A stretch of DNA of 64,000 nt from positions 1,178,001 to 1,242,000 of the forward strand of contig NZ_CP090641.1 of the NCBI RefSeq assembly GCF_029633825.1, given 5' to 3'. The notes under the pieces are model-generated. The model was not told where the DNA came from. It worked only from the letters and a program-made list of their open reading frames with translations, and ran no database searches. The DNA comes from Burkholderia contaminans. Its GTDB lineage: Bacteria > Pseudomonadota > Gammaproteobacteria > Burkholderiales > Burkholderiaceae. How positions within the stretch are numbered: position 1 is the stretch's first letter; the number at the start of each line of letters is the position of its first letter. Below, one piece after another: positions 40,259-61,194 of the stretch. Position numbers and translations under genes: made by a program.

Positions 40259-43200
40259 ATGAACCGCACATACCGCTCGATCTGGAACGAATCCCTCGGC
40301 GCGTGGGTTGCTGCATCGGAACACGACTCGGCACGGGGCAAGCCAAACAAGTCGGCCGTCGTGAAGGCCGTCGCGGCCGCGATCATGGTCGCCGGGGCGG
40401 CCGGCGGCAACGTCGCCTACGCGCAGTGCTCGACATCCGGCTATAGCGCCGGGGGCGGCAATTCGACCAGCTCGACGTCGATCGCCATCGGCTCCGGCTC
40501 CTTCGGCTCGTGCGTGCCGGGCCAAAGCCCGACCGCCTCCGCCGGCGGCGCGATTGCTATCGGCGCGAACTCACCGACCAACACGGTCGCCAGCGGGTCC
40601 AACTCGACGGCATTCGGTACGGGGTCATCGGCCACCAACACCGCATCGTCCGCATTCGGCCAAGGTACGTCGGCAACCGGTCAGTTCGCCACCGCCGTCG
40701 GCAGCGGCACGAAGGCAACCGGCAACTACGCCACCGCGATGGGTAGCACCAGCGCGGTCAACGGCATCCAGACACTCGCGTCCGGCGCCGGCTCGACGGC
40801 GATCGGCAGCAACTCCACCGCTGGCGCGCAGGCGACCGCACAGGATTCGATCTCGATCGGCGGCCAATCGTCGGTCACCTCGAGCGCAACGTCCGGCATC
40901 GCGATCGGCCGCGGTGCGACGACGAACGGCGCATACGGCATCGCTCAGGGCGATGGCGTCGTTTCCGGTGCAACCGGCCAGAACGTCGCCATCGGCTCGT
41001 CGGGCACGACCGCCGACAGCGGTTCCGCGACGGGCGGCGCCGTGGCGATCGGTCGTTCGCAGACGGCCAGCGGCGACGGCGCGGTCGCGCTCGGCACCAG
41101 CAACTCGGCAAGCGGCACGGGCGCGGTCACGCTCGGCAGCGGCAACTCGGCAAACGGCACCGGCGCGGTTGCATTGGGCAGCGCCAACAGCGTGACGGGG
41201 GCGGGTTCGGTCGGTATCGGCAGCAGCGCCAAGTCGACTTACGCGGGCTCGACCGCGATCGGCGCTTCGTCGTATGCGGGCGGCGCTTCGGCACCGGCTT
41301 CCGCTTACGGCAACGGCAGCTCCGCGACGGCGAACTATGCGACCGCGATCGGTGTCAATGCCAGCGCAGCTGGCGGCGGCAGCGTGGCGCTTGGCGTGGC
41401 CACCGCAAGTGCGCTCCAGAGCGTGGCGATCGGCCAGCAATCCACGGCTTCCCAGGCCGGAAACATTTCGATCGGTTCGTTTGCGACGGCCAGCGGCAAC
41501 GGCAATGCGGTCGCGATGGGTTACCAGTCGACGGCTTCGGCCGGCAACGCGATGGCGCTCGGCTACCTGTCGACGGCCAACGTGGCCAATTCCGTTGCCC
41601 TTGGCAACAACTCGGCAACGATTGGTGCGGCGAACACGGCGACCGGCGGCACCGGTTCGGTCAGCTCCGCCACGATCGGCAGCCAGACGTTCGGCAACTT
41701 TGCCGGCGCAAGCGCTGCCAACGGCGTCGTCAGCGTCGGTACGGCGGGCAACGAGCGCCGCATCCAGAACGTGGCCGCTGGTCTCGTCACGTCGACCAGC
41801 ACCGATGCGATCAACGGCAGCCAGCTCTACTCGGTAGCAAGCACGACGACGTCGAGCATCACGAGCCTGTCGACGTCGGCTTCGACCGGTTTGTCGTCGG
41901 CGAATAGCTCGATCACTTCGCTGTCGACTTCCACGTCGACGGGTCTGTCGTCGGCTACCAGCTCGATCGGTTCGTTGTCGACCGGCCTCTCGTCGACCAA
42001 TAGCTCGGTCACGTCGCTGTCGACTTCCACGTCGACGGGTCTGTCGTCGGCTACCAGCTCGGTCGGCTCGCTGTCGACTGGCCTCTCGTCGACCAATAGC
42101 TCGGTCACTTCGCTGTCGACTTCCACGTCGACGGGTCTGTCGTCGGCTACCAGCTCGATCGGTTCGTTGTCGACTGGCCTCTCGTCGACCAATAGCTCGG
42201 TCACTTCGCTGTCGACTTCCACGTCGACGGGTTTGTCGTCGGCTACCAGCTCGATCGGTTCGTTGTCGACCGGCCTCTCGTCGACCAATAGCTCGGTCAC
42301 TTCGCTGTCGACTTCCACGTCGACGGGTCTGTCGTCGGCCACCAGCTCGATCGGCTCGCTGTCGACTGGCCTCTCGTCGACCAATAGCTCGGTCACTTCG
42401 CTGTCGACTTCCACGTCGACGGGTTTGTCGTCGGCTACCAGCTCGATCGGTTCGTTGTCGACGGGTCTTTCGTCGACCAATAGCTCGGTCACCTCGCTGT
42501 CGACTTCCACGTCGACCGGTCTGTCGTCGGCCACCAGCTCGATCGGCTCGTTGTCGACGGGCCTTTCGTCGACCAATAGCTCGGTCACCTCGCTGTCGAC
42601 TTCCACGTCGACGGGTCTGTCGTCGGCTACCAGCTCGATTGGCTCGTTGTCGACCGGCCTGAGCTCGACCAACAGCTCGGTCACGTCGCTGTCGACCTCC
42701 ACCTCGACGGGTCTGTCGTCGGCTACCAGCTCGATTGGCTCGCTGTCGACCGGCCTCAGCTCAACCAACAGCTCGGTCACTTCGCTGTCGACTTCCACGT
42801 CGACGGGTTTGTCGTCGGCTACCAGCTCGATTGGTTCGTTGTCGACCGGCCTGAGCTCGACCAACAGCTCGGTCACGTCGCTGTCGACCTCCACGTCGAC
42901 CGGCCTGAGCACGATCACGACCAAGACGAACAACCTGGGCACCAGCACGGCGGCGGCACTCGGCGGCGGGTCCACGTACGACCCGACGACCGGGACGGTT
43001 TCCGCGCCGGCGTACACGACCTATAACGCGAACGGCACGACGTCGACCGCCAACAGCGTCGGCTCGGCGATCAACAACATCAACAGCCAGGGCATCAAGT
43101 ACTTCCACGCGAACTCGACAGGCGCCGACAGCACCGCGACCGGCACCGACGCTGTCGCCATCGGCACCGGCGCCGTCGCCGGCACGAACAACTCCGTCGC

Positions 43201-46200
43201 ACTCGGCGCCAACTCGGCGACGGCCGCGGCCAACCCCACGAGCAGCGCAACCGTCAACGGCGTTACGTTCAGCGGATTTGCCGGCGCCACGCCGGTCGGC
43301 ACCGTCAGCGTCGGCGACCTCAACAAAGAACGGCAGATCACCAACGTCGCCGCCGGTCGGGTGACCGGGACCAGTACCGACGCGATCAACGGTAGCCAGC
43401 TCTATTCGGTCGCCCAAGCGGTTGGTAGCGCGACCAGCGCCATTTCATCGCTGTCGACTTCGACCTCGACGGGTCTGTCATCGGCCAACAGCTCGATCGG
43501 CTCGCTCTCGACCGGCCTCTCGTCGACCAATAGCTCCGTCACGTCGCTGTCGACCTCGACCTCGACGGGTCTGTCGTCGGCTACCAGCTCGATCACCTCG
43601 CTGTCCACGTCGACCTCGACGGGCCTGTCGTCGGCTACCAGCTCGATCGGCTCGTTGTCGACGGGCCTTTCGTCGACCAATAGCTCCGTCACTTCGCTGT
43701 CGACCTCGACCTCGACGGGTCTGTCGTCGGCCAACAGCTCGATCACCTCGCTGTCCACGTCGACCTCGACTGGCCTGTCGTCGGCTACCAGCTCGATCGG
43801 CTCGTTGTCGACGGGCCTTTCGTCGACCAATAGCTCGGTCACCTCGCTGTCGACCTCGACCTCGACGGGTCTGTCGTCGGCTACCAGCTCGATCACGTCG
43901 CTGTCCACGTCGACCTCGACGGGTCTGTCGTCGGCCAACAGCTCGATCACGTCGCTCTCGACCGGTCTCTCGTCGACCAATAGCTCGGTCACTTCGCTGT
44001 CGACCTCGACTTCGACGGGCCTGTCGTCGGCTAACAGCTCGATCACCTCGCTGTCCACGTCGACCTCGACGGGTCTCTCGTCGGCTAACAGCTCGATCAC
44101 GTCGCTCTCGACTTCGACTTCGACCGGCCTCTCGTCGGCTACCAGCTCGATTGGCTCGTTGTCGACCGGCCTTTCGTCGACCAATAGCTCGGTCACTTCG
44201 CTGTCGACCTCGACCTCGACCGGCCTGTCCTCGGCGAATAGCTCGATCACCTCGCTGTCGACGTCGACTTCGACGGGTCTCTCGTCGGCTAACAGCTCGA
44301 TCACGTCGTTGTCCACCTCGACTTCGACGGGCCTGTCGTCGGCTAACAGCTCGATCACCTCGCTGTCCACGTCGACCTCGACGGGTCTCTCGTCGGCTAA
44401 CAGCTCGATCACGTCGCTCTCGACTTCGACTTCGACCGGCCTCTCGTCGGCTACCAGCTCGATTGGCTCGTTGTCGACCGGCCTTTCGTCGACCAATAGC
44501 TCGGTCACTTCGCTGTCGACCTCGACCTCGACCGGCCTGTCCTCGGCGAATAGCTCGATCACCTCGCTGTCGACGTCGACTTCGACGGGTCTCTCGTCGG
44601 CTAACAGCTCGATCACGTCGCTGTCCACCTCGACTTCGACGGGCCTGTCGTCGGCCAACAGCTCGATCGGCTCGCTCTCGACCGGTCTCTCGTCGACCAA
44701 TAGCTCGGTCACCTCGCTGTCGACCTCCACGTCGACGGGTCTGTCGTCGGCCAACAGCTCGATCACGTCGCTGTCCACCTCGACTTCGACGGGCCTGTCG
44801 TCAGCCAACAGCTCGATCGGCTCGCTCTCGACCGGTCTCTCGTCGACCAATAGCTCGGTCACCTCGCTGTCCACCTCGACTTCGACGGGTCTGTCGTCGG
44901 CCAACAGCTCGATCACGTCGTTGTCGACCTCGACCTCGACCGGCCTGTCGTCCGCTAACAGCTCGATCACCTCGCTGTCCACCTCGACTTCGACGGGCCT
45001 GTCGTCGGCCAATAGCTCGATCACGTCGTTGTCGACTTCCACGTCGACCGGCCTCTCGTCGGCTACCAGCTCAATCGGTTCGCTGTCCACGGGCCTCAGC
45101 TCGACGGATAGTTCGGTGACATCGCTGTCGACTTCCACGTCGACCGGCCTCTCGTCGGCGACCAGCTCGATCGGTTCGTTGTCCACGGGTCTCAGCTCGA
45201 CGAATAGTTCGGTGACGTCGCTGTCGACCTCGACCTCGACGGGCCTCTCGTCGGCTACCAGCTCGATCGGTTCGCTGTCCACGGGCCTCAGCTCGACGGA
45301 TAGTTCGGTGACGTCGTTGTCGACTTCCACGTCGACCGGCCTCTCGTCGGCTACCAGCTCGATCGGTTCGCTGTCCACGGGCCTCAGCTCGACGAATAGT
45401 TCGGTGACTTCGCTGTCGACCTCGACCTCGACGGGTCTCTCGTCGGCAAACAGCTCGATCACGTCGCTGTCCACGTCGACCTCGACGGGCCTGTCGTCGG
45501 CTAACAGCTCGATCGGCTCGCTCTCGACCGGTCTCTCGTCGACCAATAGCTCGGTCACGTCGCTGTCGACCTCGACCTCAACGGGGCTGTCGTCGGCCAA
45601 CAGCTCGATCACCTCGTTGTCGACCTCGACCTCGACGGGCCTGTCTTCGGCCAACAGCTCGATCACGTCGCTGTCCACGTCGACCTCGACGGGCCTGTCG
45701 TCGGCCAACAGCTCGATCACGTCGCTGTCCACGTCGACCTCGACGGGTCTGTCGTCGGCCAACAGCTCGATCACGTCGCTGTCGACCTCGACGTCGACGG
45801 GCCTGTCTTCGGCTAACAGCTCGATCACCTCGCTGTCGACTTCGACCTCGACGGGCCTGTCTTCGGCCAACAGCTCGATCACGTCGCTGTCCACGTCGAC
45901 CTCGACGGGGCTGTCCTCAGCTAACAGCTCGATCACGTCGCTCTCGACTTCGACCTCGACGGGCCTGTCGTCGGCCAACAGCTCGATCACCTCGCTCTCG
46001 ACGTCGACCTCGACGGGCCTGTCGTCGGCCAACAGCTCGATCACGTCGCTGTCGACTTCCACGTCGACCGGCTTGTCGTCTGCCAACAGCTCGATCGGTT
46101 CGCTGTCCACGGGCCTCAGCTCGACGGATAGTTCGGTGACGTCGCTGTCGACCTCGACCTCGACCGGCCTCTCGTCTGCCAACAGCTCGATCGGTTCGCT

Positions 46201-48409
46201 GTCCACGGGCCTGAGCTCGACGGATAGTTCGGTGACGTCGTTGTCGACCTCCACGTCGACCGGCCTCTCGTCGGCAACCAGCTCGATCGGTTCGCTGTCC
46301 ACGGGTCTCAGCTCGACGAATAGTTCGGTGACTTCGCTGTCGACTTCGACCTCGACCGGTCTCTCTTCGGCGAACAGCTCGATCACTTCGCTGTCGACTT
46401 CGACCTCGACCGGCCTCTCGTCGGCCAACAGCTCGATCGGTTCGCTGTCCACGGGCCTCAGCTCGACGAACAGTTCGGTGACTTCGCTGTCGACCTCGAC
46501 CTCGACGGGTCTCTCGTCGGCCAACAGCTCGATCACCTCGCTGTCGACCTCGACGTCGACGGGCCTGTCTTCGGCCAACAGCTCGATCACCTCGCTGTCG
46601 ACTTCGACCTCGACGGGCATCAACTCGCTGTCCACCGGCCTGAGCAGCACGAACAGCACGATCCTGTCGCTGTCCACGTCGACGTCGACCGGCATCGGCT
46701 CGCTGTCCACCGGCCTGAGCAGCACGAACAGCTCGGTGTCGTCGCTGTCGACCTCGACCTCGACCGCGATCAATGACGCGAAAACGCACTACTACAGCGT
46801 CAACGACAACGGCGTGCAGCAAGCCAACTACGACAACAAGGGCGCGACGGGCATCAACGCCCTCGCAGCCGGCGTGAACGCTAGCGCGGCAGGCAACAGC
46901 AGCGTGGCAGTCGGCGACGGTTCGAACGCGCAGTCGGCAGGCGCGGTCGCCATCGGCCAGAACGCATCGGCAACGGGCGGCAAGGCCGTGTCGATCGGCT
47001 CCGGCAACACGGCAACCGGCGACGGCGCGGTCGCGATCGGCGACCCGAGCATCGCTACGGGTACCGGCGCGGTGGCGATGGGCGCGAACGACACGGCGAC
47101 CGGCAACGGCGCAGTGGCGCTCGGCAACGCGAACACGGCCAACGGCGCGAGCGCACTTGCACTCGGCAGCTCGAACCAGGCCACCGCGGACAACACGATC
47201 GCGCTCGGCAACCAGGCCACGGCAAGCGCCACCGGCGCGCAAGCGTACGGCTCGGCAGCGCAGGCAACCGCGGCCGACGCACTGGCCTTCGGCACGAACG
47301 CACAGGCCAACGTCGCCAACTCGATCGCACTCGGCGCGAACTCGGTCACGAGCGCCGCGAACCCGACGTCGAGCGCCACGATCGGCGGCGTCACGTACCC
47401 GTTCGCAGGCGGCTCGCCGGTCGGCGTGGTGAGCGTCGGCGCACCGGGGGCGGAACGCCAGATCACGAACGTCGCCGCGGGCCGGATCTCGGCCAGCAGC
47501 ACGGACGCGATCAACGGCAGCCAGCTCAACGCGACGAACAACGCGATCAACACGCTGTCGACGTCGACCGCGTCGAACGTCGCATCGCTGTCCACGGGCA
47601 TCAACTCGCTGTCCACCGGCCTGAGCGCGACGAACAGCAACGTGGCCTCGCTGTCCACGTCGACCTCGACCGCGATCAACTCGCTGTCGACGGGCCTGAG
47701 CACGACGAACAGCAACGTCAACTCGCTGTCGACGTCGACCTCGACGGGCATCGGTTCGCTGTCCACCGGCCTGAGCACGACGAACAGCAACGTGGCCTCG
47801 CTGTCGACCGGCGTGACGAACATCAACAACCAGTTGAACCAGTTGTCGACGACACTCAACAACAACACGACGCGTGCGGCGAACAACAACGGCGTGGCGG
47901 CCGACATGAATGGCACCGGCACCGACCACCCGACCGTCACCGCCGGCTCGAACTCGGTGGCGATCGGCGCGAATTCGACGGACGGCGGCCGCTCGAACGT
48001 GGTGTCGGTCGGTAGCGACACGCAGCAGCGCCAGATCACGAACGTCGCGCCGGGTACGCAAGGCACCGACGCGGTGAACGTGAACCAGCTGACGCAGGTG
48101 CAGACGACGCTGTCGACGGCACTGTCGGGCCAGCAGGCGCAGATCAACTCGCTGGGTTCGCAACTGCAGCAGACCGACCAGATGGCGAAGCAGGGTATCG
48201 CGGCCGTCGGCGCGATGGCATCGATCCCGCAGCTCGATCGCGATGCCAACTTCGGGATGGGCGTGGGTACGTCGACCTTCCTCGGCCAGAAGGCGATGGC
48301 GGTCAACATGCAGGCTCGCATCACGGAGAACCTGAAGGCGTCGATCAACGGCGGCTTCAGCGGCGGTCAGAAGGTGATCGGCGCCGGCATGCTGTACCAG
48401 TGGAAGTAA
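40259..48409 (+). CDS. Giant trimeric autotransporter adhesin (Hep/Hag, YadA-anchor)
   Basis: 2716 residues. An extended signal peptide region (MNRTYRSIWNESLGAWVAAS, hydrophobic core about 36-54, end VAYAQ) is followed by a YadA-like head of SASGTGAVTLG-type repeats (about 60-490) and a neck (TSTDAINGSQLYSV, near 512-525). Then come a first Ser/Thr stalk (about 528-891), a GGGSTYDPTTG connector with a second head and neck (to about 1053), the main stalk (about 1058-2171), a third head and neck (to about 2428), a short stalk, a last neck (near 2590-2613), and a C-terminal beta-barrel anchor ending YQWK. It trimerises in the outer membrane to mediate adhesion. GGAGGT precedes ATG 40259. Confidence 0.93.
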   Translation: MNRTYRSIWNESLGAWVAASEHDSARGKPNKSAVVKAVAAAIMVAGAAGGNVAYAQCSTSGYSAGGGNSTSSTSIAIGSGSFGSCVPGQSPTASAGGAIAIGANSPTNTVASGSNSTAFGTGSSATNTASSAFGQGTSATGQFATAVGSGTKATGNYATAMGSTSAVNGIQTLASGAGSTAIGSNSTAGAQATAQDSISIGGQSSVTSSATSGIAIGRGATTNGAYGIAQGDGVVSGATGQNVAIGSSGTTADSGSATGGAVAIGRSQTASGDGAVALGTSNSASGTGAVTLGSGNSANGTGAVALGSANSVTGAGSVGIGSSAKSTYAGSTAIGASSYAGGASAPASAYGNGSSATANYATAIGVNASAAGGGSVALGVATASALQSVAIGQQSTASQAGNISIGSFATASGNGNAVAMGYQSTASAGNAMALGYLSTANVANSVALGNNSATIGAANTATGGTGSVSSATIGSQTFGNFAGASAANGVVSVGTAGNERRIQNVAAGLVTSTSTDAINGSQLYSVASTTTSSITSLSTSASTGLSSANSSITSLSTSTSTGLSSATSSIGSLSTGLSSTNSSVTSLSTSTSTGLSSATSSVGSLSTGLSSTNSSVTSLSTSTSTGLSSATSSIGSLSTGLSSTNSSVTSLSTSTSTGLSSATSSIGSLSTGLSSTNSSVTSLSTSTSTGLSSATSSIGSLSTGLSSTNSSVTSLSTSTSTGLSSATSSIGSLSTGLSSTNSSVTSLSTSTSTGLSSATSSIGSLSTGLSSTNSSVTSLSTSTSTGLSSATSSIGSLSTGLSSTNSSVTSLSTSTSTGLSSATSSIGSLSTGLSSTNSSVTSLSTSTSTGLSSATSSIGSLSTGLSSTNSSVTSLSTSTSTGLSTITTKTNNLGTSTAAALGGGSTYDPTTGTVSAPAYTTYNANGTTSTANSVGSAINNINSQGIKYFHANSTGADSTATGTDAVAIGTGAVAGTNNSVALGANSATAAANPTSSATVNGVTFSGFAGATPVGTVSVGDLNKERQITNVAAGRVTGTSTDAINGSQLYSVAQAVGSATSAISSLSTSTSTGLSSANSSIGSLSTGLSSTNSSVTSLSTSTSTGLSSATSSITSLSTSTSTGLSSATSSIGSLSTGLSSTNSSVTSLSTSTSTGLSSANSSITSLSTSTSTGLSSATSSIGSLSTGLSSTNSSVTSLSTSTSTGLSSATSSITSLSTSTSTGLSSANSSITSLSTGLSSTNSSVTSLSTSTSTGLSSANSSITSLSTSTSTGLSSANSSITSLSTSTSTGLSSATSSIGSLSTGLSSTNSSVTSLSTSTSTGLSSANSSITSLSTSTSTGLSSANSSITSLSTSTSTGLSSANSSITSLSTSTSTGLSSANSSITSLSTSTSTGLSSATSSIGSLSTGLSSTNSSVTSLSTSTSTGLSSANSSITSLSTSTSTGLSSANSSITSLSTSTSTGLSSANSSIGSLSTGLSSTNSSVTSLSTSTSTGLSSANSSITSLSTSTSTGLSSANSSIGSLSTGLSSTNSSVTSLSTSTSTGLSSANSSITSLSTSTSTGLSSANSSITSLSTSTSTGLSSANSSITSLSTSTSTGLSSATSSIGSLSTGLSSTDSSVTSLSTSTSTGLSSATSSIGSLSTGLSSTNSSVTSLSTSTSTGLSSATSSIGSLSTGLSSTDSSVTSLSTSTSTGLSSATSSIGSLSTGLSSTNSSVTSLSTSTSTGLSSANSSITSLSTSTSTGLSSANSSIGSLSTGLSSTNSSVTSLSTSTSTGLSSANSSITSLSTSTSTGLSSANSSITSLSTSTSTGLSSANSSITSLSTSTSTGLSSANSSITSLSTSTSTGLSSANSSITSLSTSTSTGLSSANSSITSLSTSTSTGLSSANSSITSLSTSTSTGLSSANSSITSLSTSTSTGLSSANSSITSLSTSTSTGLSSANSSIGSLSTGLSSTDSSVTSLSTSTSTGLSSANSSIGSLSTGLSSTDSSVTSLSTSTSTGLSSATSSIGSLSTGLSSTNSSVTSLSTSTSTGLSSANSSITSLSTSTSTGLSSANSSIGSLSTGLSSTNSSVTSLSTSTSTGLSSANSSITSLSTSTSTGLSSANSSITSLSTSTSTGINSLSTGLSSTNSTILSLSTSTSTGIGSLSTGLSSTNSSVSSLSTSTSTAINDAKTHYYSVNDNGVQQANYDNKGATGINALAAGVNASAAGNSSVAVGDGSNAQSAGAVAIGQNASATGGKAVSIGSGNTATGDGAVAIGDPSIATGTGAVAMGANDTATGNGAVALGNANTANGASALALGSSNQATADNTIALGNQATASATGAQAYGSAAQATAADALAFGTNAQANVANSIALGANSVTSAANPTSSATIGGVTYPFAGGSPVGVVSVGAPGAERQITNVAAGRISASSTDAINGSQLNATNNAINTLSTSTASNVASLSTGINSLSTGLSATNSNVASLSTSTSTAINSLSTGLSTTNSNVNSLSTSTSTGIGSLSTGLSTTNSNVASLSTGVTNINNQLNQLSTTLNNNTTRAANNNGVAADMNGTGTDHPTVTAGSNSVAIGANSTDGGRSNVVSVGSDTQQRQITNVAPGTQGTDAVNVNQLTQVQTTLSTALSGQQAQINSLGSQLQQTDQMAKQGIAAVGAMASIPQLDRDANFGMGVGTSTFLGQKAMAVNMQARITENLKASINGGFSGGQKVIGAGMLYQWK
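41840..42930 (+). repeat. First Ser/Thr-rich stalk repeat array of the adhesin
   Basis: Alternating 42-bp and 54-bp units (96-bp pairs) encoding SSIGSLSTGLSSTN and SSVTSLSTSTSTGLSSAT. Units are nearly identical at protein level with scattered synonymous changes, as expected from recent tandem duplication. Confidence 0.9.
43430..46770 (+). repeat. Main Ser/Thr-rich stalk repeat array of the adhesin
   Basis: About 3.3 kb of tandem units. The dominant one is 54 bp (SSITSLSTSTSTGLSSAN); the 42-bp unit (SSIGSLSTGLSSTN) recurs between them, always followed by the SSVT form. Fourteen residues equal two heptads and eighteen equal 7+11, both compatible with a continuous trimeric coiled coil. About half of all residues are Ser or Thr. 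Assemblies from short reads are likely to collapse here. Confidence 0.92.
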
Positions 48410-48476
48410 CGCGTCGCGCCGCCAGGCCGCCCGGCACGCCAGCCGGACGGCCCGCGGCGGCCCCGACGGCCGGACG

Positions 48477-48503
48477 AGCCCGCCGCGCCACCCGCGGCGG
48501 GCT
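48477..48503 (+). terminator. Hairpin after the adhesin gene
   Basis: An 11-bp perfect stem (AGCCCGCCGCG with CGCGGCGGGCT) and a 5-base loop, 68 bases past the adhesin stop and 30 bases before the OmpA-family gene. There is no T-tract, so it may stabilise or process mRNA instead of ending transcription. Confidence 0.4.
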
Positions 48504-48533
48504 TCAGTCAACCCAAGCATTGAGGATGTAACC

Positions 48534-52430: not shown

Positions 52431-53567
52431 ATGAAACTCAATGTCGCGATAACGATGAACGTGCAACGCGACGCGACGCAGTCGATCTGGTACAACGGCG
52501 CGAATCAGCACTGCGTGTTCCTGTACATGCTGCTGAAGCAGTCGCCGCTGATCGGCGAGGTCTGGCTCGCGCACGACGACGGCATCACCGACTATCCGCA
52601 AGCGCTGATGATGGACGCGTTCGGCGACGCGCTGCGGCCGCTGTCGGCCGTCGTCCACCAGACCGACCTGCTGATCGAAATGAATGCGTTCGTCGATCAG
52701 ACCCACACGGATGCCGTGCGCCGGCGCGGCGGCAAGTGCGTGTCGTACCGCTTCGGCAACGACTACGTGATCGCGGTCGAGACGATCAACTTCGAGAAGA
52801 ATCAGTGGCGGCCGAACCCGAACCGCGTGCAGTTCGACGAGATCTGGACCAACCCGCAGCACATGCACACGTGCGCGGCATATTTCCAGGCCGTCTATCG
52901 CGCGCCGGTAATCGAGCTGCCGCACATCTGGTCGCCGTATTTCATCGAGCGCAGCCTCGACGCCGATCCTGAACTGAAGGCGCGCTTCGGCTATCGCAAC
53001 CACGGCACCGCGAAGCGCATCGCGTTCTTCGAGCCGAACCTGAACGTCGTGAAGAGCTCGATCGTGCCGATGCTCGCCGCGAACGCGTGCTATGTCGAGC
53101 ATCCGGAGCTCGTCGAGCACGTGTTCATGACCAACACGTTCGACAAGAAGGAAAACGTCGCCTTCAAGCATCTCGCGCTCGGGCTCGAGATGGTGCGCGA
53201 CGGCAAGGCAACCGCCGACGTGCGCGCACCGTTCGTCGCGTGGGCCGCGCATCACACCGACATCGTCGTGTCCCATCACTGGGAAAACGGTCTCAACTAC
53301 CTGCTGTACGACGCGCTGTACGGCAACTACCCGCTCGTGCACAACTCGCCGTTCCTGCGCGACGTCGGCTACTACTACCCGGACTTCGAGATCTTCGATG
53401 CGGCGCGTGCGATCGCGACCGCCGCGCAGACGCATGACGGGCGGCTCGACGACTACGCGGCCGCGGCCCGCCGCTGCCTGCATCACGTCGACACGCTCGC
53501 CGAGCACAACGTCCACGCGTATTCCGCGCAGATCCGGCAGCTGTTCGACGGCCGCGCGCTCGGCTGA
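52431..53567 (+). CDS. DUF2827 protein, putative glycosyltransferase (copy 3)
   Basis: 378 residues. It keeps the family signatures PHIWSPYF, EPNLNVVKSSIVPML, SHHWENGLNYLLYDALYG and PLVHNSPFLRDVGYYYPDFE. It is a little more distant from copies 1 and 2 than they are from each other, and lacks their short N-terminal extension. It is followed 28 bp later by the FkbM-TPR-GT9-like fusion gene on the same strand. Confidence 0.82.
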   Translation: MKLNVAITMNVQRDATQSIWYNGANQHCVFLYMLLKQSPLIGEVWLAHDDGITDYPQALMMDAFGDALRPLSAVVHQTDLLIEMNAFVDQTHTDAVRRRGGKCVSYRFGNDYVIAVETINFEKNQWRPNPNRVQFDEIWTNPQHMHTCAAYFQAVYRAPVIELPHIWSPYFIERSLDADPELKARFGYRNHGTAKRIAFFEPNLNVVKSSIVPMLAANACYVEHPELVEHVFMTNTFDKKENVAFKHLALGLEMVRDGKATADVRAPFVAWAAHHTDIVVSHHWENGLNYLLYDALYGNYPLVHNSPFLRDVGYYYPDFEIFDAARAIATAAQTHDGRLDDYAAAARRCLHHVDTLAEHNVHAYSAQIRQLFDGRALG

Positions 53568-53595
53568 CCTCATTCGTCCACGCTACCTACCGTCC

Positions 53596-55569
53596 ATGAA
53601 TCAGACCGTCCGCAATTTCGTCGTGATCGATTCGATTCACGGTCCGTTCGTCATCAACCGGCACTGCGCATATCAAGCCGAGGCGCTGATCAAGACCGGA
53701 CGGCCGCACATCCAGCACGAGCTCGACGCGATCCTGCAGGTGATCGACCAGTTGCCGGACGATGCGATCGCTGTGGACGGCGGCGCGAATGCAGGGCTCG
53801 TGTGCGTGCCGATCGCGCACCGGCTGCGCGCGCGCGGCGGCCGCGTGTATGCATTCGAGCCGCAGCGCACGCTGTTTCATGCGCTCGGCGGCACCGTCGC
53901 GCTCAACCAGCTCGACAACCTCCATCTGCTGAACATGGGTGTCGGGGGCGTCAACGGCACGATGAAAGTGCCCGACGTCGATTACGGGCAGGCCGCCGAC
54001 TTCGGCCAGGTCTCGCTCGTCGACGCGCGCACGGAAGGCGGCACGCCGACGCCGGTCGTCACGCTCGATTCGCTCGGCCTGCCACGACTGGATTTCCTGA
54101 AGCTCGACGTCGAAGGGATGGAGATCGACGCGCTGCGCGGCGCGCGCCGGCTGATCGAGACGCACCTTCCGTGGTGCTGGGTCGAATACTGGAAAGTCGG
54201 CGAGGCGCCGATCATCGCCACCTTTGCCGGCCTCGACTACACGTTCTACCGGGTCGACCCGCTGAACCTGCTTTGCGTGCCGAACCCGCGCTGGGATCCG
54301 CAGCGGCTGACCATCGCGATCGAGCAGGTCACGATCGAAGCGACGGCCGATGACGACACGCACCACCCGCCAGCGACCGCCGCCGACACCGACGCGCCCG
54401 AAACGAACTGGAACCGCGCGCTCGACCACGAGTCGCGCTGCGAGTGGGGGCATGCCATTGCCCGCTGGCAGCGCGCGCTCGGCCGCGGGCTCGACGACGA
54501 TGCGATCGCACTGCAACTCGCGTCGTGCTACGGCTTCGCCGGTGCGCCCGATGCCGGGCTGGCGGCGCTCGAACGCTTCGGCGATCCCGCCGCGCTCCCC
54601 GACGCGGCGCGCGGCCGCATCGAGCTGGCCCGTTCGGCGCTGCTGCTGCGCGCCGGCCGGCGCGACGAGGCCGCCCGTGCCACCATCTCCAGCGAAAACG
54701 TGCTGACGGCCGCGCAGTTCGGGCTGCCGACGGAGCGGCTCTACCAGGGCCAGCCGCTGCAAGGCAAGCGGCTGCTGGTGCTCAGCTACGGCGGCGTCGG
54801 CGACCAGCTCCAGTACGCGCGCTACCTGGGCGCACTCGACACGCTCGGCTGCACGAGCGTGACCGTCGTCGTGCCGGACGCGCTGACCGGCCTGCTGCGT
54901 CACACGTTCCCGCACCTCGAATTCATCGGTGCGCACGGCGCGTGGGTCGACACGTCGCAGATCGCGCACGACTACTGGTGTTCGTTCCTGGTGCTCGCTG
55001 CGCAGTTCGGCTACGCACCGGCGCCCAAAGGATCGGCGGCCGCGTACCTGTCGTGCCCGCCCGAGCGCGCGGCCGCGTGGCGCGAGCGCGTGGAGCGCGA
55101 CGGCCATCCCGCCGGCACGCGCCGCATCGGGCTCAACTGGCGCGGTCGCGACGAAAGCGACGCGCGCTTCCATCGCGCGGCCAGCCTGCGCGACCTCGCG
55201 CCGTTGACGCGGATGCATGGCCACGCCGCGTACTGCATCAACCGCGACCTGTCCGCGCAGTCCGAGCAATCGGACCTGCCGGTGACGTTCCCGCACCAGG
55301 CGATCGGCGATTTCAGCGACCTGGCGGGGCTGATGCTGGCGCTGGATGCCGTGGTGACCACCTGCACCGCGCACATCCATCTCGCCGGCGCGCTCGGCGT
55401 GCCGGCCGTGCTGCTGCTCAGCCCGAAAGCCGACGCGCGCTGGGAAACCGGCTCGCGCACCGCGCTCTATCCGGGCATCCGGATCGTGCGCGCCGCACGC
55501 GTCGGGCAATGGGACGACGCGGTCGACCGCGCGATGGCGTTCGTGCTCGGCGGATTCGGGAAGGATTGA
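53596..55569 (+). CDS. FkbM methyltransferase / TPR / GT9-like fusion protein
   Basis: 657 residues with three parts. Residues 1-245: FkbM-family SAM-dependent methyltransferase (VDGGANAG as SAM motif, AFEPQRTLF, FLKLDVEGMEIDAL). About 270-375: helical repeats resembling TPRs (ARWQRALGRGLDDDAIALQL). About 385-657: a glycosyltransferase-9/ heptosyltransferase-like domain (LLVLSYGGVGDQLQYARYLG, IGLNWRGRDESD and TCTAHIHLAGALGVP). FkbM enzymes O-methylate sugars or small molecules. Fusion to a glycosyltransferase supports synthesis of a methylated glycan. ATG 53596 follows the DUF2827 gene by 28 bp. Confidence 0.83.
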   Translation: MNQTVRNFVVIDSIHGPFVINRHCAYQAEALIKTGRPHIQHELDAILQVIDQLPDDAIAVDGGANAGLVCVPIAHRLRARGGRVYAFEPQRTLFHALGGTVALNQLDNLHLLNMGVGGVNGTMKVPDVDYGQAADFGQVSLVDARTEGGTPTPVVTLDSLGLPRLDFLKLDVEGMEIDALRGARRLIETHLPWCWVEYWKVGEAPIIATFAGLDYTFYRVDPLNLLCVPNPRWDPQRLTIAIEQVTIEATADDDTHHPPATAADTDAPETNWNRALDHESRCEWGHAIARWQRALGRGLDDDAIALQLASCYGFAGAPDAGLAALERFGDPAALPDAARGRIELARSALLLRAGRRDEAARATISSENVLTAAQFGLPTERLYQGQPLQGKRLLVLSYGGVGDQLQYARYLGALDTLGCTSVTVVVPDALTGLLRHTFPHLEFIGAHGAWVDTSQIAHDYWCSFLVLAAQFGYAPAPKGSAAAYLSCPPERAAAWRERVERDGHPAGTRRIGLNWRGRDESDARFHRAASLRDLAPLTRMHGHAAYCINRDLSAQSEQSDLPVTFPHQAIGDFSDLAGLMLALDAVVTTCTAHIHLAGALGVPAVLLLSPKADARWETGSRTALYPGIRIVRAARVGQWDDAVDRAMAFVLGGFGKD

Positions 55570-55662
55570 TCGACGGGATGCGGATCGGGGCCGCGGCGTG
55601 CGGATGATGTCGACGCGGGCCGTGCGTCTCGCGCGGTGGCCCGTGACGGGCGTGAACAGGCG

Positions 55663-56079
55663 CTAGACCAGTACCCGATCGCCGCTCTGCGCGGCGAACG
55701 TACGGCCATGCCGCCGCCCCATCCGCGCGAGCACCGCGAAGCAACGCGCCACCGGCCGGCTGGCGCCGCCGGACTGCTTGACGAGGCTGTCGGATACGCC
55801 ACGCGCGATGGCCGAATCGTCGCCGCACGCGCCCGCGATGACGGCCGCGTAATAGTGCCGCGCCGCCAGCTCGCGGCCACCGGCGTCGAGCGGCGTCATT
55901 CGCTGAATCCGGCGCGCAATGGATTTCAGGCCGTCGAGGTACGGCGCGACGTCGATCGGCACATCGGTCGATTCGGCGCCCAGTTGCCACAGCATGTCGG
56001 CCAGCTCGGTGATCGCGACGAGGTCGCGCGCACCGGTCGCCTGCGTGCCCGTTCCGCCTCCGGCCTTCGTGCCTGCCAT
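55663..56079 (-). CDS. Hypothetical small protein
   Basis: About 138 residues, helical and Ala-rich (ITELADMLWQLGAESTDVPI, then IDVAPYLDGLKSIARRIQRM), without signal or membrane segment. ATG 56079 is preceded by AAAGGGG at 6-7 nt and was preferred to an ATG at 56196 that overlaps the EAL gene. No family is recognised. It follows the EAL-domain gene in the same direction (93 bp), so a link to c-di-GMP signalling is possible but speculative. Confidence 0.6.
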   Translation of the reverse strand: MAGTKAGGGTGTQATGARDLVAITELADMLWQLGAESTDVPIDVAPYLDGLKSIARRIQRMTPLDAGGRELAARHYYAAVIAGACGDDSAIARGVSDSLVKQSGGASRPVARCFAVLARMGRRHGRTFAAQSGDRVLV

Positions 56080-56171
56080 GCTCAACCCCTTTGCGATTCG
56101 TCCCGGCCACGCGCCGATCACGCCCGACATCGGCGTGCATCCGGCACGCCACCTCGCCTGTTCCCGCGCCG

Positions 56172-57038
56172 TCACGCGACGGCCGGCGACCGCCACGAAA
56201 AACGGATGCCCTGCGCCCAGGCGACGCCCGCATCCACGATGATCTGCCGGTCGACCTCGCTCTCCACGCCCTCGACGACGACGTGCCGCGCGCCTTCATG
56301 CGCGAACGCGATCAGCCGGCGGAACTGGTAACGCCCGATCGCGTTGCGCTTGATCAGCGACAGGATCGACCGGTCGAGCTTCACGATGTCGGGATTGCCG
56401 ACCACCAGGTTGTTCAAAGCACTGAAGCCGACACCGAAATCGTCGATCGCGATGCGGCACCCGGCTTGCCGGAAGCGGTTCACGAACGAACGACCCGCGA
56501 CAGGGTTCAGCGGCCCCGTCTCCGTGATCTCGACCACCAGGCGCGCCGCGACCGACGGCTCGCGCTCGAGCCGCCTGAAGATGGCCAGCCACGCGTCGTC
56601 GACCACCGCGCTCGCTGCCGCCACGTTGCAGCCGTAAACGGCAGCCGGATCGGCGCGCAGTGCGTCAATCGCCCGGCCGACCACGAGCCGGTCGAACCAC
56701 CGCATCAGCCCGAGCGCCTCGAGGCGCGGCAGGAACGCGGCCGGCGGCAGCGCATCGCGCTCGCCCCACCGCAATCGCGCCAGGCACTCCTGATACAGCA
56801 CACCGCCCGACAGGTCGGCCCGGCACACGGGCTCCTGCGCAAACCCGAGCCGGCTTTCCACGAAACTGCGTACCGACGCGAGGTCGGGATGATCGTCGGG
56901 GGCGCCGAACACGAGATCGATTTCGTCCCGATTCACTTCCCGATTCGCCTCCAGGCGAGCTTCGACCGCATTCATCCGGCGCTCCGGCAAATGGCGAGCC
57001 GCCGATCGCGGCTCGACCTCAAGAAACATGCGGAGCAT
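56172..57038 (-). CDS. EAL-domain cyclic-di-GMP phosphodiesterase-like protein
   Basis: 288 residues, a single EAL domain with a short N-terminal segment and no sensor or membrane helices. Metal/catalytic positions: E of ECLARLRW (EAL replaced by ECL), N in GCNVAAAS, E in EITETGPL, the DDFG of IDDFGVGFSALNNL, K in IVKLDRSIL, and EGVES. Most of the active site is kept, so it may hydrolyse c-di-GMP, though the altered ECL motif leaves room for a binding-only role. It is in an AT-rich boundary next to the adhesin-modification genes and could tune surface attachment. Confidence 0.83.
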   Translation of the reverse strand: MLRMFLEVEPRSAARHLPERRMNAVEARLEANREVNRDEIDLVFGAPDDHPDLASVRSFVESRLGFAQEPVCRADLSGGVLYQECLARLRWGERDALPPAAFLPRLEALGLMRWFDRLVVGRAIDALRADPAAVYGCNVAAASAVVDDAWLAIFRRLEREPSVAARLVVEITETGPLNPVAGRSFVNRFRQAGCRIAIDDFGVGFSALNNLVVGNPDIVKLDRSILSLIKRNAIGRYQFRRLIAFAHEGARHVVVEGVESEVDRQIIVDAGVAWAQGIRFSWRSPAVA

Positions 57039-57581
57039 GACGTGCTCCGCCGCCTACCCGGCCCATCCTGTTATGTCGATCTTTTCCGGGAGCGTACTTT
57101 TCGCTTCGGCGCGCCGTCAAATTCGATATTTTCAACGATATTCGGTTACCTGAAATACACCATGTACGCGCGATACCGACTGTGCGACAGGTCACACTAG
57201 CGCAAATTGCGGAACCCGACGCAGATGCTGTTTATTATCTTCTTCTAAACAATCTTTCCCGAATCAATTGTCCGGCAATTTACGGGCCACGAAATCGGGA
57301 TATTCTCAATTGATCAGACCAATACCGGCCCGCGAAGTACTGCCCGCTTCCGCGGCCAAGCTCATCTCGGAGGCCTGTTGCGGAGGCCTTTCGCCCGATT
57401 TTCCTTTCGCTGAAAATCGGCCGCCGTGCGCCATTCGATCACTGCAGCATTCAATTTTCCCGTTTCAAACTAATTATTAAATTTATAAACGGAATCAAGT
57501 CGCCTCGAATCGATAATACCAAGTTAATTCATATGACGATTATCAATTGAACCATTTTTAACAATCTTAAATACTTGTTAA

Positions 57582-57674
57582 CCTTTAAAATGATTTCCGA
57601 CGGACTTCCCTCGGAGCCGTCAGATTCGTGCCTTCAAAACCGTCGAACCGTTCGGGTTCGGCGGTTTCTTTTTT
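57582..57674 (+). ncRNA. Candidate small RNA ending in an intrinsic terminator
   Basis: A possible promoter (TTGAAC at 57547-57552, 17-base spacer, AATACT at 57570-57575) precedes about 93 bases with two hairpins: an imperfect one at 57599-57621 with a CCTC loop, and a perfect 13-bp terminator stem at 57637-57667 followed by a T-rich tail. The pyrimidine stretch CTTCCCTC is complementary to Shine-Dalgarno sequences, a typical sRNA seed. Prediction only; the promoter match is partial (4 of 6 in each box). Confidence 0.4.
57637..57674 (+). terminator. Strong intrinsic terminator, T-tract on the plus strand
   Basis: Left arm 57637-57649 and right arm 57655-57667 form a 13-bp stem (one T-G wobble) with a 5-base loop, then C and six T. 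On the minus strand it would also have TTTT, so it may end the DUF2827 gene (stop at 57763) from the right as well. No plus-strand protein gene lies upstream. Confidence 0.85.
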
Positions 57675-57762
57675 AACGGCACCATTTCGTCAGACATTAG
57701 GGCGGGACAATCCCGATGGCGGGATTCGGCGCGACGGTGTGCGTCGCCCGAACGATCAGGCC

Positions 57763-58905
57763 TCATGCGGCCGATGCGCCGACCAGGTTCGCGAGCAGCG
57801 CATCGTATTCGGCGATGAGTGCCGGATTGGCCGACGTATAGCGGCGGAGGATCTCGCGCTGGCGCCGCGTGTACGCTTCCCAGTCGTCGTCGTGCGTATG
57901 CAGCGCGCGCAGCAGCACATCGGCGCCTTGCTGCACGTCGTTGTCCGGATAGTAGTAGCCGAGATCGGGCGCGAGGCTCGCGTTGTGCACGAGCGGATAG
58001 CCCTGCCAGCACACGTCGAAATAGAAATAGTTGAGCGGGTTCGACCATTGGTGCGACACGACGATATCGGTCAGGTCGGCCAGGAACAGCGGCGTATCGA
58101 AGCGCCCGACGAAGCTCGCCTTGCCCGCGCGCACGATGTCGAGGTAGTTCATCAGCATCACGAACTCCGGGCTGTCGTGTGCGAGATGGAGGGCATTCGT
58201 CACGTGCGTGAAGCAGATCGCATCGGGGTCTCGCCGATACGCTTCGTCGATGATCAGCATCGGATACACGCAGAACTTCACCACGTCGTGGTTCGGCTCC
58301 ATCACCGTCAGCCGCTTGCCGGGCTCGCTGCGCGGCCGGTATTCACCGTGCTCGGGCAGCGGCGCGGCGCGCGCACTCAGGAACATCGGATCCCACACGA
58401 ACGGCACGACGCGCCCCGGGCAGCGGCGCAGCGACTGCAGGAACGGCAGCGACGAAGGCGCGATCTGCGGAATCGCCCACACCTCGTCGTAGCCGCGGTT
58501 GATGAACAGCGAATCCCACAGCCGGCGGCCGAACAGCATCGACTCCATCACGTTGATGTACTCGACGCCGCAGCAGTAGCTGACGAGCTTCGCGCCGCGC
58601 GCCTTCAAATACGCCGTCTGCTCGCCGTTGACCTGCCCGCCGAGCTCGATCACCACGTCGAGCGAATCCTTCATGTCGTCGAACGTGCGCGTGTCGAACA
58701 CGTTGCGATCCCACGGCAGCGCATCGGTGAGCGGCACGTCGGTGGTGTTGACCAGCGTCACGCGGTAGCCGTGCGGCGACGCCATCAGCAGCTTCGCGAG
58801 AAACAACGCGTTCTGCTTGATGCCGTTGATCCACAGGCTTTCGTCGGGGGCGCGCAGTCCGATCGTGATACCGATGCGCAGGCCGTTCAGGACAGGAGAC
58901 GTCAT
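57763..58905 (-). CDS. DUF2827 protein, putative glycosyltransferase (copy 4, divergent)
   Basis: 380 residues on the opposite strand to copies 1-3 and the most divergent: the family block reads SHQWSNPLNYFYFDVCWQG and PLVHNASLAPDLGYYYPDND, with WEN changed to WSN. The opening (GLRIGITIGLRAPDESLWIN) and VPFVWDPMF centre keep the family pattern. ATG 58905 was chosen over an ATG at 58995 because the family starts there (MTSPVLNGLRIG). It is divergent from the methyltransferase gene at 59183. Confidence 0.8.
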   Translation of the reverse strand: MTSPVLNGLRIGITIGLRAPDESLWINGIKQNALFLAKLLMASPHGYRVTLVNTTDVPLTDALPWDRNVFDTRTFDDMKDSLDVVIELGGQVNGEQTAYLKARGAKLVSYCCGVEYINVMESMLFGRRLWDSLFINRGYDEVWAIPQIAPSSLPFLQSLRRCPGRVVPFVWDPMFLSARAAPLPEHGEYRPRSEPGKRLTVMEPNHDVVKFCVYPMLIIDEAYRRDPDAICFTHVTNALHLAHDSPEFVMLMNYLDIVRAGKASFVGRFDTPLFLADLTDIVVSHQWSNPLNYFYFDVCWQGYPLVHNASLAPDLGYYYPDNDVQQGADVLLRALHTHDDDWEAYTRRQREILRRYTSANPALIAEYDALLANLVGASAA

Positions 58906-59182
58906 CGTCGGCAGGATGGAAGGTTGGATGGGGAGGGAATGGACGCAGTGTAGCGCGCGATGCGCCGCCCGCGTCAAGCGGCGCGGCGGCGGCAAGCCGG
59001 CATTCTAGCGGAGCGCCCGCCCCATACTGTCAGGGATGGTCAGCGCGCGGGGCGGCCGCGCAATTCCGCCGGATCGCTGTGCGATACTCGTGCCACCCGA
59101 CGCCAGTTGGCCGGATTGTTCGGGCATTCGAACGGGCGACAGACGGGCTTGCCGAGCCGCGATCAAAAGAAGGGCTGACGAA

Positions 59183-59875
59183 ATGGAACACAATGCCGCG
59201 CAAGTCTTCCAGAAGATCCACGACGAAAAGGGCTGGCACTCGCAGGAAAGCGTGTCCGGGTGGGGATCGGAGCTGAAAAACACCGCGCAGATCATTCGCG
59301 AGCTGCCCGGGCTGCTGGGCCGCTACGGGGTGCGCTCCATGCTCGACGCGCCGTGCGGCGATTTCAACTGGATGCGCCATGTCAACCTCGACGGCATCGA
59401 CTACATCGGCGCGGATATCGTGCAGACCCTCGTGACGGCCAACCAGGCGACGTGGACTTCGCCGAGCCGTCGTTTCGTGCATCTGGACCTGCTCCGGGAT
59501 CCGTTGCCGGACGCCGACCTGATCCTGTGCCGCGACTGCCTGTTTCATTTTTCCCATGCGGACGTGTTCCGCGCCTTCGAGCGCTTCTCCGCAACGAAAG
59601 CGCGCTACCTGCTGACCACGACCTTCATCTACCGCAGCTATCCGCGCAACGCGAACATCGCGACCGGCCAGTGGACGCCCATCAACCTCGAGATGGCGCC
59701 GTTCGATCTCGATCCGCCGCTGACGCTGCTGGTCGAGGGCAGCAACGAATCCGTCATCTACGGGCCCGACATCGGCACGGTGCCGATGTCCGATCGCTGT
59801 CTCGGACTCTGGAGCATGGACAGCGTTCGCGAGCGGCTACGGCGACCGCTGCCGGACCTTCCGGGCGCGCAATGA
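59183..59875 (+). CDS. Class I SAM-dependent methyltransferase
   Basis: 230 residues with a Rossmann-type methyltransferase fold: motif I LDAPCGDFNWM (about 54-64), YIGADIVQTL (about 76-85) and an acidic DLILCRDCLFHF segment for motif IV (about 112-123). The family is often encoded with glycan-synthesis genes. ATG 59183 has AGAAGG nine bases upstream. Its stop overlaps the glycosyltransferase start (ATGA), so the two are translationally coupled and probably act on the same glycan. Confidence 0.8.
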   Translation: MEHNAAQVFQKIHDEKGWHSQESVSGWGSELKNTAQIIRELPGLLGRYGVRSMLDAPCGDFNWMRHVNLDGIDYIGADIVQTLVTANQATWTSPSRRFVHLDLLRDPLPDADLILCRDCLFHFSHADVFRAFERFSATKARYLLTTTFIYRSYPRNANIATGQWTPINLEMAPFDLDPPLTLLVEGSNESVIYGPDIGTVPMSDRCLGLWSMDSVRERLRRPLPDLPGAQ

Positions 59876-61194
59876 TCGTCATCAGCCACTTCGGCCAGGC
59901 CGCACCCGCGAGCCTCGAGAATCACCGGCAATACGCGCAGGCGCACGGCTATCGCCACGAAATCGTCGACGCCTCCGCGATGCCGCAGGCGCTGCCGTTG
60001 CGGCCGCTCCATCGCTACGAATCACTGCTCCATGTGCTGCGCGGCGCGCAGCCCGACGAACTCGTGCTGCTGCTCAGCGAAGATGCGGCGATCATCGAGC
60101 CCGTCGCGCTCGACCGCCTGATGAGCGGCCGAGACATGCTGTTCGTCGACGCGTTCGCGCCCCCATTGCCGCAGGTCGACGTGCAGATCTGGCGCAATAC
60201 GGCGGCCGTGCGGGCGATCGTGATGCAGCTGGTGCAGCGCTGCAAGCTCGGCAGCGAACCGCGGCTGACCTCGGAGGCCGCGCTGTTCGCGGCGCTCGAC
60301 ACGCATCACTACATGACCCCGATCGACGGGCTGTATCCGGTCATGCCGACCAGCCCCGACCTCGATCCGATGTGGAGCCGCGAACCGACGTTCGCGATCA
60401 GCATCGACGACACGCCGCACGATCCCGAACGGAAAGGCACGACGCCCCGTTTCCGCGACACGCTCGTGGCATACATCAATCGATGCCAGGCCGCCGGCCG
60501 GCCGATGTTCTCGTTCGATCACGCCGCCGCCCATACGCCGGACGAAGCCGCCGAGCGCAGCACCTACAATCCTGGCAGCCCGATCGCGTTGATGACGCTC
60601 TACACGCCGAACATCGGCAGCTATGCGCGCGTCGCCGAACGGAATTTCCGGCGGTACTGCGACACGCACGGCTACACGCTCTACGTGCATCGCGACGTTC
60701 CGGCCGAGATCGGCCTGAACGCGACCGGCAACTGGTTCAAGCCGTGGCTGCTGCATGCGTACCTGCAGCATCACGAATGGGTCGTGTGGCTCGATGCCGA
60801 CGTGCTGATCGCGGACCAGCAGAAAGCGCTGGCGCCGCTGCTCGAAGGGCGCGACTGGCTGCTCGCGCACGACCTCGGCCAGTGGGCGTTCAACTCGGGC
60901 GTGATGGCATTCCGGCGCACCGGGCGCAACGACGCGATGCTGCGCGACATGATGACGACGATCACCGCGCTGCACGACCGGTCGAGCGTCTATGCGAGCG
61001 ACGGCGACCAGCTGCATTTCATTCGCGCGATGGAGCGCGACGGGCAATTGCACGGCGAAGGCGTGGCCGATCTCGTCAGCTTCAACACGCCCTGGCTGTT
61101 TCGCCGCGCGGACAGCTACATCGTGCATTACTACGGAATGTGGTCCGCGATGCGTGCGCTGATGATGGCGCACGACGACGGCGTGCTGGGCTGA
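59872..61194 (+). CDS. Double-domain glycosyltransferase, GMA12/MNN10-like C-terminal half
   Basis: 440 residues, no membrane helix. The C-terminal half (about 238-440) resembles the galactosyl transferase GMA12/MNN10 family, with the nucleotide-sugar DxD motif in VVWLDADVLI, NSGVMAFRRTG and a SDGDQLHF segment. The N-terminal half (about 1-200) looks like a second, degenerate GT-A domain (HGYRHEIVDAS, then LLLSEDAAIIEP where the DxD would be). Start overlaps the methyltransferase stop. Presumed to extend a glycan; sugar and acceptor unknown. Confidence 0.78.
   Translation: MIVISHFGQAAPASLENHRQYAQAHGYRHEIVDASAMPQALPLRPLHRYESLLHVLRGAQPDELVLLLSEDAAIIEPVALDRLMSGRDMLFVDAFAPPLPQVDVQIWRNTAAVRAIVMQLVQRCKLGSEPRLTSEAALFAALDTHHYMTPIDGLYPVMPTSPDLDPMWSREPTFAISIDDTPHDPERKGTTPRFRDTLVAYINRCQAAGRPMFSFDHAAAHTPDEAAERSTYNPGSPIALMTLYTPNIGSYARVAERNFRRYCDTHGYTLYVHRDVPAEIGLNATGNWFKPWLLHAYLQHHEWVVWLDADVLIADQQKALAPLLEGRDWLLAHDLGQWAFNSGVMAFRRTGRNDAMLRDMMTTITALHDRSSVYASDGDQLHFIRAMERDGQLHGEGVADLVSFNTPWLFRRADSYIVHYYGMWSAMRALMMAHDDGVLG

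Follow-up and report, generated by a model that had tools for sequence, protein, structure and literature searches.

DUF2827 proteins as probable GT-B glycosyltransferases of trimeric autotransporter adhesins with Ser/Thr-rich stalks

Is the Ser/Thr-rich stalk of a giant bacterial adhesin modified by enzymes encoded next to it? This question is raised by a locus of Burkholderia contaminans (contig NZ_CP090641.1) in which a trimeric autotransporter adhesin (TAA) gene lies close to four genes of the family of unknown function DUF2827, here termed D1 to D4. The locus is part of a window of 64,000 nucleotides, i.e. the whole stretch of DNA that was analyzed (G000:C2:1178001-1242000 of a 9.44-Mb genome in 7 contigs; genomes, contigs, and loci are denoted G, C, and L). 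All genes named in the original prediction, comprising the TAA, an OmpA lipoprotein, four DUF2827 proteins, a DUF4019 protein, a fusion protein, a methyltransferase, and a glycosyltransferase, are present among the open reading frames (ORFs). The core of that prediction, an adhesin modification locus, stands on firmer ground than the sequence alone could give its author, and its interpretation as a whole is partly supported. DUF2827 proteins are probably GT-B glycosyltransferases dedicated to TAAs with SLST-type stalks. The basis is computational and consists of the predicted fold, the orthology of D1, D2, and D4, linkage to TAA genes, Ser/Thr enrichment, and co-occurrence across genomes. Because DUF2827 proteins resemble sugar transferases and in many bacteria adjoin giant adhesins with extremely Ser/Thr-rich stalks, they probably decorate these stalks with sugars.

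The TAA (40259-48409, plus strand; 2716 residues) has the features of a type Vc autotransporter: an ESPR, YadA head and stalk repeats, and a C-terminal YadA anchor (window 48227-48403; genome C2:1226227-1226403). Ser and Thr account for 1291 of the 2716 residues (47.5%). The original description of the stalk as about half Ser/Thr thus holds for the whole protein but understates the stalk, in which two long segments of 376 residues (41813-42940, plus strand) and 1117 residues (43412-46762, plus strand) reach 64 and 65% Ser/Thr with only one and four Lys, Arg, Asp, or Glu residues, respectively. Together the two segments contain about 970 Ser/Thr per chain, and over a wider stretch of 1660 residues Ser/Thr make up 75% of the residues other than Leu, Ile, Val, Met, and Phe. 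The commonest stalk units are SLSTSTSTGLSSANSSI and SLSTGLSSTNSSV, and the repeat periods are 18, 32, and 50 residues, with DNA arrays of 54, 96, and 150 bp.

Both published quantitative PCR primers for BCAM2418 of B. cenocepacia (PMC7970998) matched the TAA of strain NCTC13227 of this species (locus L126), where the gene order TAA, OmpA, D1, D2, DUF4019, D3, FkbM-GT9 is the same as in the window. It is thus deduced that the window TAA is the orthologue of BCAM2418. For the latter, SLST repeats were described and putative O-linked glycosylation of the Ser/Thr repeats was proposed (PMC7142374). The term DUF2827 is absent from the available text of that paper, and BCAM2419/BCAM242 are absent from the available main text of the BCAM2418 transcriptome and surfome papers, so that the neighboring enzymes are seemingly not discussed there. 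Surface shaving of BCAM2418 recovered only residues 205-282 of 2775 (PMC11054960). Sparse peptides fit a modified stalk; few tryptic peptides are expected anyway because the stalk is almost devoid of Lys and Arg.

D1 (49595-50740), D2 (50755-51909, 14 bp 3' of D1), and D3 (52431-53567) lie on the plus strand and D4 (57763-58905) on the minus strand. All four matched PF10933 from model position 1 or 2 to 361 or 362 with 370-530 bits, against a cut-off of 25 bits. At E ≤ 0.001, DUF2827 was the sole Pfam family found in D1 to D4 (no sequence match to Glycos_transf_1/CAZy GT4), no NCBIfam match was obtained, and PDB sequence searches with DUF2827 gave no relevant match. The original prediction had regarded DUF2827 as an unproven glycosyltransferase family, and the predicted structure is in line with this idea, as it displays two Rossmann-like domains in a GT-B arrangement. 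GT4-type enzymes generally carry an E-x7-E type acidic pair near the sugar-nucleotide site. Asp or Glu occupies position 305 in all of 56 DUF2827 sequences, and Asn occupies position 297 in 51 of 56, the latter being the site at which the first Glu would lie by our own placement. The top viral structural match of the DUF2827 model was an uncharacterized algal-virus protein (BFVD A0A7L9AXF5, Pyramimonas orientalis virus 01B; TM score 0.80 by query, 19% identity).

The closest relatives of the window's D1 stem from Burkholderia species, e.g. B. lata (97%) and B. arboris (96%). In a tree of 65 sequences, D4 formed a clade with support of 100/100, and D1 and D2 formed groups supported by 99/99 and 100/99, respectively. 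Each includes Burkholderiaceae, Comamonadaceae, and Oxalobacteraceae, and the D1 and D2 groups additionally include Frateuria (Rhodanobacteraceae) and Verrucomicrobiota. From these three supported multifamily clades it is deduced that D1, D2, and D4 are orthologous enzymes that are old and separately maintained. The sole sequence to group with D3, a divergent copy found in Burkholderia loci, was another one from Burkholderia, on a long branch; the three DUF2827 genes of G082 fell outside the clades, likewise on long branches.

Full DUF2827 genes were present in 64 of the 150 genomes searched, the window's own included; G039, G084, and G085, which carry fragments only, were left out of the 64. 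Linkage was determined for 29 DUF2827 genomes with at most five contigs plus the own genome and G083. Of 48 DUF2827 clusters, 41 were located no more than 5 kb downstream of a YadA anchor, all of them on its strand. Among clusters with at least two full DUF2827 genes, 40 of 41 were TAA-linked, the exception being G097. Conversely, 42 of 187 YadA anchors were linked to DUF2827. Second, more divergent DUF2827 clusters reside beside a second TAA of the same genome in six genomes (G022:C4:666629-670615, G030:C2:311175-315161, G024:C3:1272741-1274980, G054:C2:3251156-3255216, G006:C2:119046-121309, and G047:C3:272333-274515). An independent scan of GTDB contigs gave 344 stretches encoding a relative, 80 of which were kept and searched at their ORF ends with a self-built anchor profile, filters off. 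An anchor was found within 3.6 kb in 60 of the 80, and in 5 more a TAA stalk ran beyond the examined DNA. Neither was found in 15; four of these contigs start just upstream (L118, L129, L137, L185) and a fifth is 4.6 kb long (L169). Among the genera with linked loci are Burkholderia, Paraburkholderia, Ralstonia, Variovorax, Caballeronia, Ramlibacter, Noviherbaspirillum, Glaciimonas, and Frateuria. In two genomes of family f23 of the same order, the TAA adjoining two DUF2827 genes has 42-43% Ser/Thr in its available part. The association of DUF2827 with TAAs is far beyond chance.

The survey of co-occurrence suggested with the original prediction revealed that the partners are specifically the Ser/Thr-rich TAAs. 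Composition was compared over the anchor-bearing open frame for every TAA found by its anchor in ten genomes: four of the window's genus, one each of Paraburkholderia, Ralstonia, and Variovorax, two of Caballeronia, and G083 from another genus of the family. Linked TAAs (11) contained 33-51% Ser/Thr, with the frames of G155, G083, and one of G021 incomplete at the ends of the available DNA, whereas the 51 unlinked TAAs had a median of 20% and a maximum of 40% (Mann-Whitney p 2e-7); for G150, G151, G154, G155, and G159 "unlinked" means not beside the known locus, as further DUF2827 genes were not searched there. Linked TAAs ranked top for Ser/Thr in 10 of 10 genomes, the chance of which is 7e-9 assuming independent genomes, and these are not fully independent. 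The motif STS[TA]ST[GA] occurred in 10 of 10 linked TAAs vs 6 of 44 unlinked ones. In a blind test, seven further linked TAAs (G006, G022, G024, G030, G033, G047, G054) contained 29-53% Ser/Thr with 200-residue peaks of 45-70%, and five of them held 60-161 SLST. Four TAAs of the DUF2827-negative genomes G042 and G078 had 14-27% Ser/Thr and zero SLST.

The association was also evident across whole genomes. A strict nucleotide pattern encoding STSTSTG, in which serine codons were restricted to TCN, occurred at least 10 times in 55 of the 64 genomes that have full DUF2827 genes and in none of the 86 that lack them. TAAs were present in 64 of 64 and 13 of 86 of these genomes, respectively; among TAA-bearing genomes the pattern reached that number in 55 of 64 with DUF2827 vs 0 of 13 without (p 3e-9). 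In a sample of 300 genomes of the order, which partly overlaps with the 150 and includes the own genome, six had DUF2827 over the cut-off, three of them with 57-234 motif copies and three (G083, G211, G356) with none, and the remaining 294 had at most three copies each. In G039 (L240), the TAA, D1, D2, DUF4019, D3, and fusion genes have all gone from between conserved flanking genes, D4 is reduced to a remnant, and a single motif copy is left. D1 relatives were found on 18 records of a plasmid collection, some of them chromosome-sized. Five were examined; one is unannotated, and in the other four (two each of B. ambifaria and B. glumae) a YadA-like gene is accompanied by two or three nearby DUF2827 genes, which are annotated by family name only. 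Three of these four records were typed as conjugative, and three of four also encode TPR-GT9-like proteins. A phage origin was rejected: D1 had no match in the phage collection, and D1 and D4 had none in PHROGs at E ≤ 0.01.

Several observations weigh against a dedication of DUF2827 to SLST-type TAAs. Seven of the 48 clusters lie away from a TAA. They comprise five lone full genes (G000:C3:818723 at L044, G038:C1:970832, G051:C1:2034774, G056:C3:338021, and G057:C2:757558), a fragment in G021, and the three-gene cluster of G097; the first lone gene belongs to the window's own genome and lies on C3, at a distance of 189 kb. Six Collimonas, three Hydromonas or related metagenome-assembled genome (MAG), and one Spartobacteria contig have no adjacent TAA, and the single, contig-cut TAA of Collimonas OK607 has only 30% Ser/Thr, peaking at 41%. 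The motif was counted fewer than 10 times in nine DUF2827 genomes (G009, G029, G032, G044, G050, G057, G063, G082, G083). The linked TAAs of G006 and G033 hold just 9 and 8 SLST, with Ser/Thr mostly in head-like repeats, and beside the G033 TAA lies no more than a DUF2827 fragment. Partial Ser/Thr richness also occurs in some unlinked TAAs that have no DUF2827 nearby. Finally, the p-values overstate independence, as most genomes belong to one genus.

All seven low-count genomes other than G009 and G032 proved to have related Ser/Thr-rich repeats in their linked TAAs, with 200-residue peaks of 46-63% (SLSSGLSTTNS and SLSTGL types; SSGLSNVSS in G082). The repeat persists even where enzyme and adhesin genes are apart: three of the seven TAAs of G097 contain 74, 32, and 28 motif copies, and in Hydromonas duriensis five of six TAAs have 39-50% Ser/Thr and the sixth 34%. 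Shorter Ser/Thr-rich segments were seen in the unlinked TAAs G000:C3:507210, G038:C1:2247809, G038:C3:481857, G034:C3:292002, and G021:C3:433852. No glycosyltransferase was recognized by eye beside these five, which are possible substrates in trans. One neighbor of the lone gene at L044 is a large ORF of 734 residues without a Pfam match. In L161 and L162, DUF2827, a GT34-like gene, and several successive proteins of ~500 residues (one with a Methyltransf_23 match) form a larger cluster without an adjacent TAA. In the uncultured Spartobacteria contig L182, D1 and D2 accompany an ORF of repeated ITAGSNSSLSFTG-like units with 28% Ser/Thr; here, outside Proteobacteria, DUF2827 is perhaps paired with another repeat protein.

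A GT-B fold is silent on the acceptor, and DUF2827 and the other enzymes might instead build a surface polysaccharide or lipopolysaccharide (LPS) decoration that is bound by, or works with, an unmodified adhesin. BCAM2418 is reported to bind host glycans (PMC10224339). DUF2827 is found beside a GT34-like gene in Hydromonas and the related MAG, which also encodes a Methyltransf_23 protein, and beside GT2 and GT4 genes in the Spartobacteria contig. We consider this explanation unlikely, for DUF2827 is linked to Ser/Thr-rich TAAs specifically and not to TAAs in general. Moreover, no polysaccharide, LPS, or capsule cluster was recognized by eye beside TAA and DUF2827 in one locus each of Ralstonia, Paraburkholderia, Caballeronia, Variovorax, Ramlibacter, and Noviherbaspirillum, which were profile-scanned only in part; an LPS or capsule locus was set aside on this ground. 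The Ralstonia locus contains a methyltransferase resembling that of the window.

Even less probable is a neighborhood conserved by common descent, in which DUF2827 would be incidentally co-inherited with one Ser/Thr-rich TAA lineage and Ser/Thr richness would merely reflect expansion of a short coiled-coil repeat. Most loci do come from Burkholderia, where the arrangement is conserved, and the stalk repeat is plainly a tandem expansion. Common descent is countered by a gene order that varies by genus (the TAA follows the enzymes in Caballeronia and precedes them elsewhere), by the second DUF2827 sets beside second TAAs, by the plasmid cassettes, and by repeats and enzymes that co-occur without adjacency and go missing together. 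Very improbable, in our estimation, is O-glycosylation of the stalk in the periplasm by a general oligosaccharyltransferase, with another role for DUF2827. O-linked glycosylation of BCAM2418 was suggested with reference to general bacterial O-glycosylation (PMC7142374), and another TAA, b-EmaA, is reportedly modified through WaaL (PMC10233464), but a general system would need no GT-B set tied to one type of TAA.

The OmpA-domain lipoprotein (48534-49202, plus strand) resembles TpgA in its position adjoining the TAA and only weakly in sequence (NF047726, 47.4 bits, below the cut-off of 350). The DUF4019 protein (about 51935-52399, plus strand; 81.5 bits) has a likely signal peptide by eye. It is followed by D3 and a 657-residue FkbM-TPR-GT9-like fusion (53596-55569, plus strand). 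D1, D2, DUF4019, D3, and the fusion look like one operon because the intergenic gaps are only 14 to 31 bp. Within 48300-57800, promoter- and terminator-like sites did not exceed chance level, and no regulatory RNA matched Rfam at gathering scores within 36000-64000. As for the fusion, the FkbM assignment was solid, with a sequence match to PDB 2py6, but the proposed GT9 part was weak by sequence (PF01075, E 0.14) and depends mainly on the AlphaFold model. Since this model is poor (mean pLDDT 59.0), its matches to OGT, GT9, and TibC structures are a hint only; a PDB sequence search with this part gave nothing useful.

An EAL-domain protein, a predicted cyclic di-GMP phosphodiesterase absent from the original gene list, is encoded between the fusion and D4 (56172-57038, minus strand). 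Its gene keeps this position in many related loci of Burkholderia, and an EAL gene lies between D1 and D2 in L057, L143, L144, and L147 (L057 and L143 represent one and the same place). These positions hint that the adhesin may be under cyclic di-GMP control. Beyond D4, a methyltransferase gene (59036-59875, plus strand; true start perhaps near 59183; weak Pfam matches below cut-offs) overlaps by 4 bp the gene of a GT34 (GMA12/MNN10)-like protein (59872-61194, plus strand). The latter had been described as a double-domain glycosyltransferase, and a significant match was confined to its C-terminal half. A minus-strand phospholipase C gene ends the region. Across loci (the collections overlap), GT9-like proteins occurred in 30 of 119 and GT34-like proteins in 19 of 119. 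Outside the Burkholderia cepacia complex, most loci lack the fusion, methyltransferase, GT34, and D3 genes, and the recurrent set is a TAA with two or three DUF2827 genes. Neither sugar-nucleotide pathway genes nor accessory Sec genes (SecA2/SecY2) were among the Pfam-scanned ORFs; no search by name was made.

By analogy with TibC and TibA, O-glycosylation would take place on the unfolded stalk in the cytoplasm, ahead of Sec export. The D1-D2 pair, assigned to priming because of its usual tandem order alone, might prime Ser/Thr of the almost uncharged repeats from a nucleotide sugar. D4 might add a further sugar or act on different sites, and in Burkholderia the glycan may be varied or capped by D3, TPR-GT9, FkbM, the methyltransferase, and GT34. 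The outcome would be a hydrophilic, protease-resistant, sugar-coated rod keeping the adhesin head off the cell. A methylated glycan, a methyltransferase-GT34 role, and self-containment of the system are guesses.

TibC is a dedicated glycosyltransferase for the adhesive autotransporter TibA (PMC4358343), and the TibC/Aah autotransporter heptosyltransferases (BAHT, GT9) share this dedication with the system proposed here; in the low-confidence model, TibC is resembled by the GT9-like portion of the fusion. Unlike them, D1 to D4 are without an NCBIfam match, and the fusion reached only 15 bits for TIGR04414 (TibC/Aah; cut-off 200). Their substrate is a passenger of the TibA/AIDA-I type, whereas here it would be a trimeric coiled-coil stalk. 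For EmaA of Aggregatibacter, likewise a trimeric autotransporter, glycosylation has been reported (PMC10233464), but by the periplasmic O-antigen ligase WaaL and with no dedicated gene set beside the adhesin. The GtfA-GtfB and SdgB systems for Gram-positive serine-rich or SD-repeat adhesins differ in that a Gram-negative type Vc adhesin is concerned here and in that DUF2827 has no sequence match to those enzymes in PDB searches. A literature search, with most subscription journals outside its scope, returned no report of a DUF2827 function or of a tie between these enzymes and the adhesin; for the term DUF2827 itself, it yielded one database paper.

With somewhat less assurance than for the glycosyltransferase assignment itself, we consider it more likely than not that D1-D2-D4 constitute a portable module of three enzymes. 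These would form a sequence family distinct from known glycosyltransferases and would both prime and extend O-glycans on the STSTSTG/SLST repeats of TAAs. The module would be able to act in trans on several adhesins of a genome (G097, Hydromonas), would have been duplicated next to second adhesins in some Burkholderia, and would travel together with its substrate on conjugative plasmids. It would thus be the Gram-negative counterpart of the glycosylation of serine-rich-repeat adhesins. The results point to a likely function, fold, and substrate for DUF2827 in several Burkholderiales genera and beyond, and they name candidate enzymes for the suspected O-glycosylation of BCAM2418-type adhesins. 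Given the number of Ser/Thr in its stalk segments, the window TAA could carry glycans at a very high density for a bacterial adhesin.

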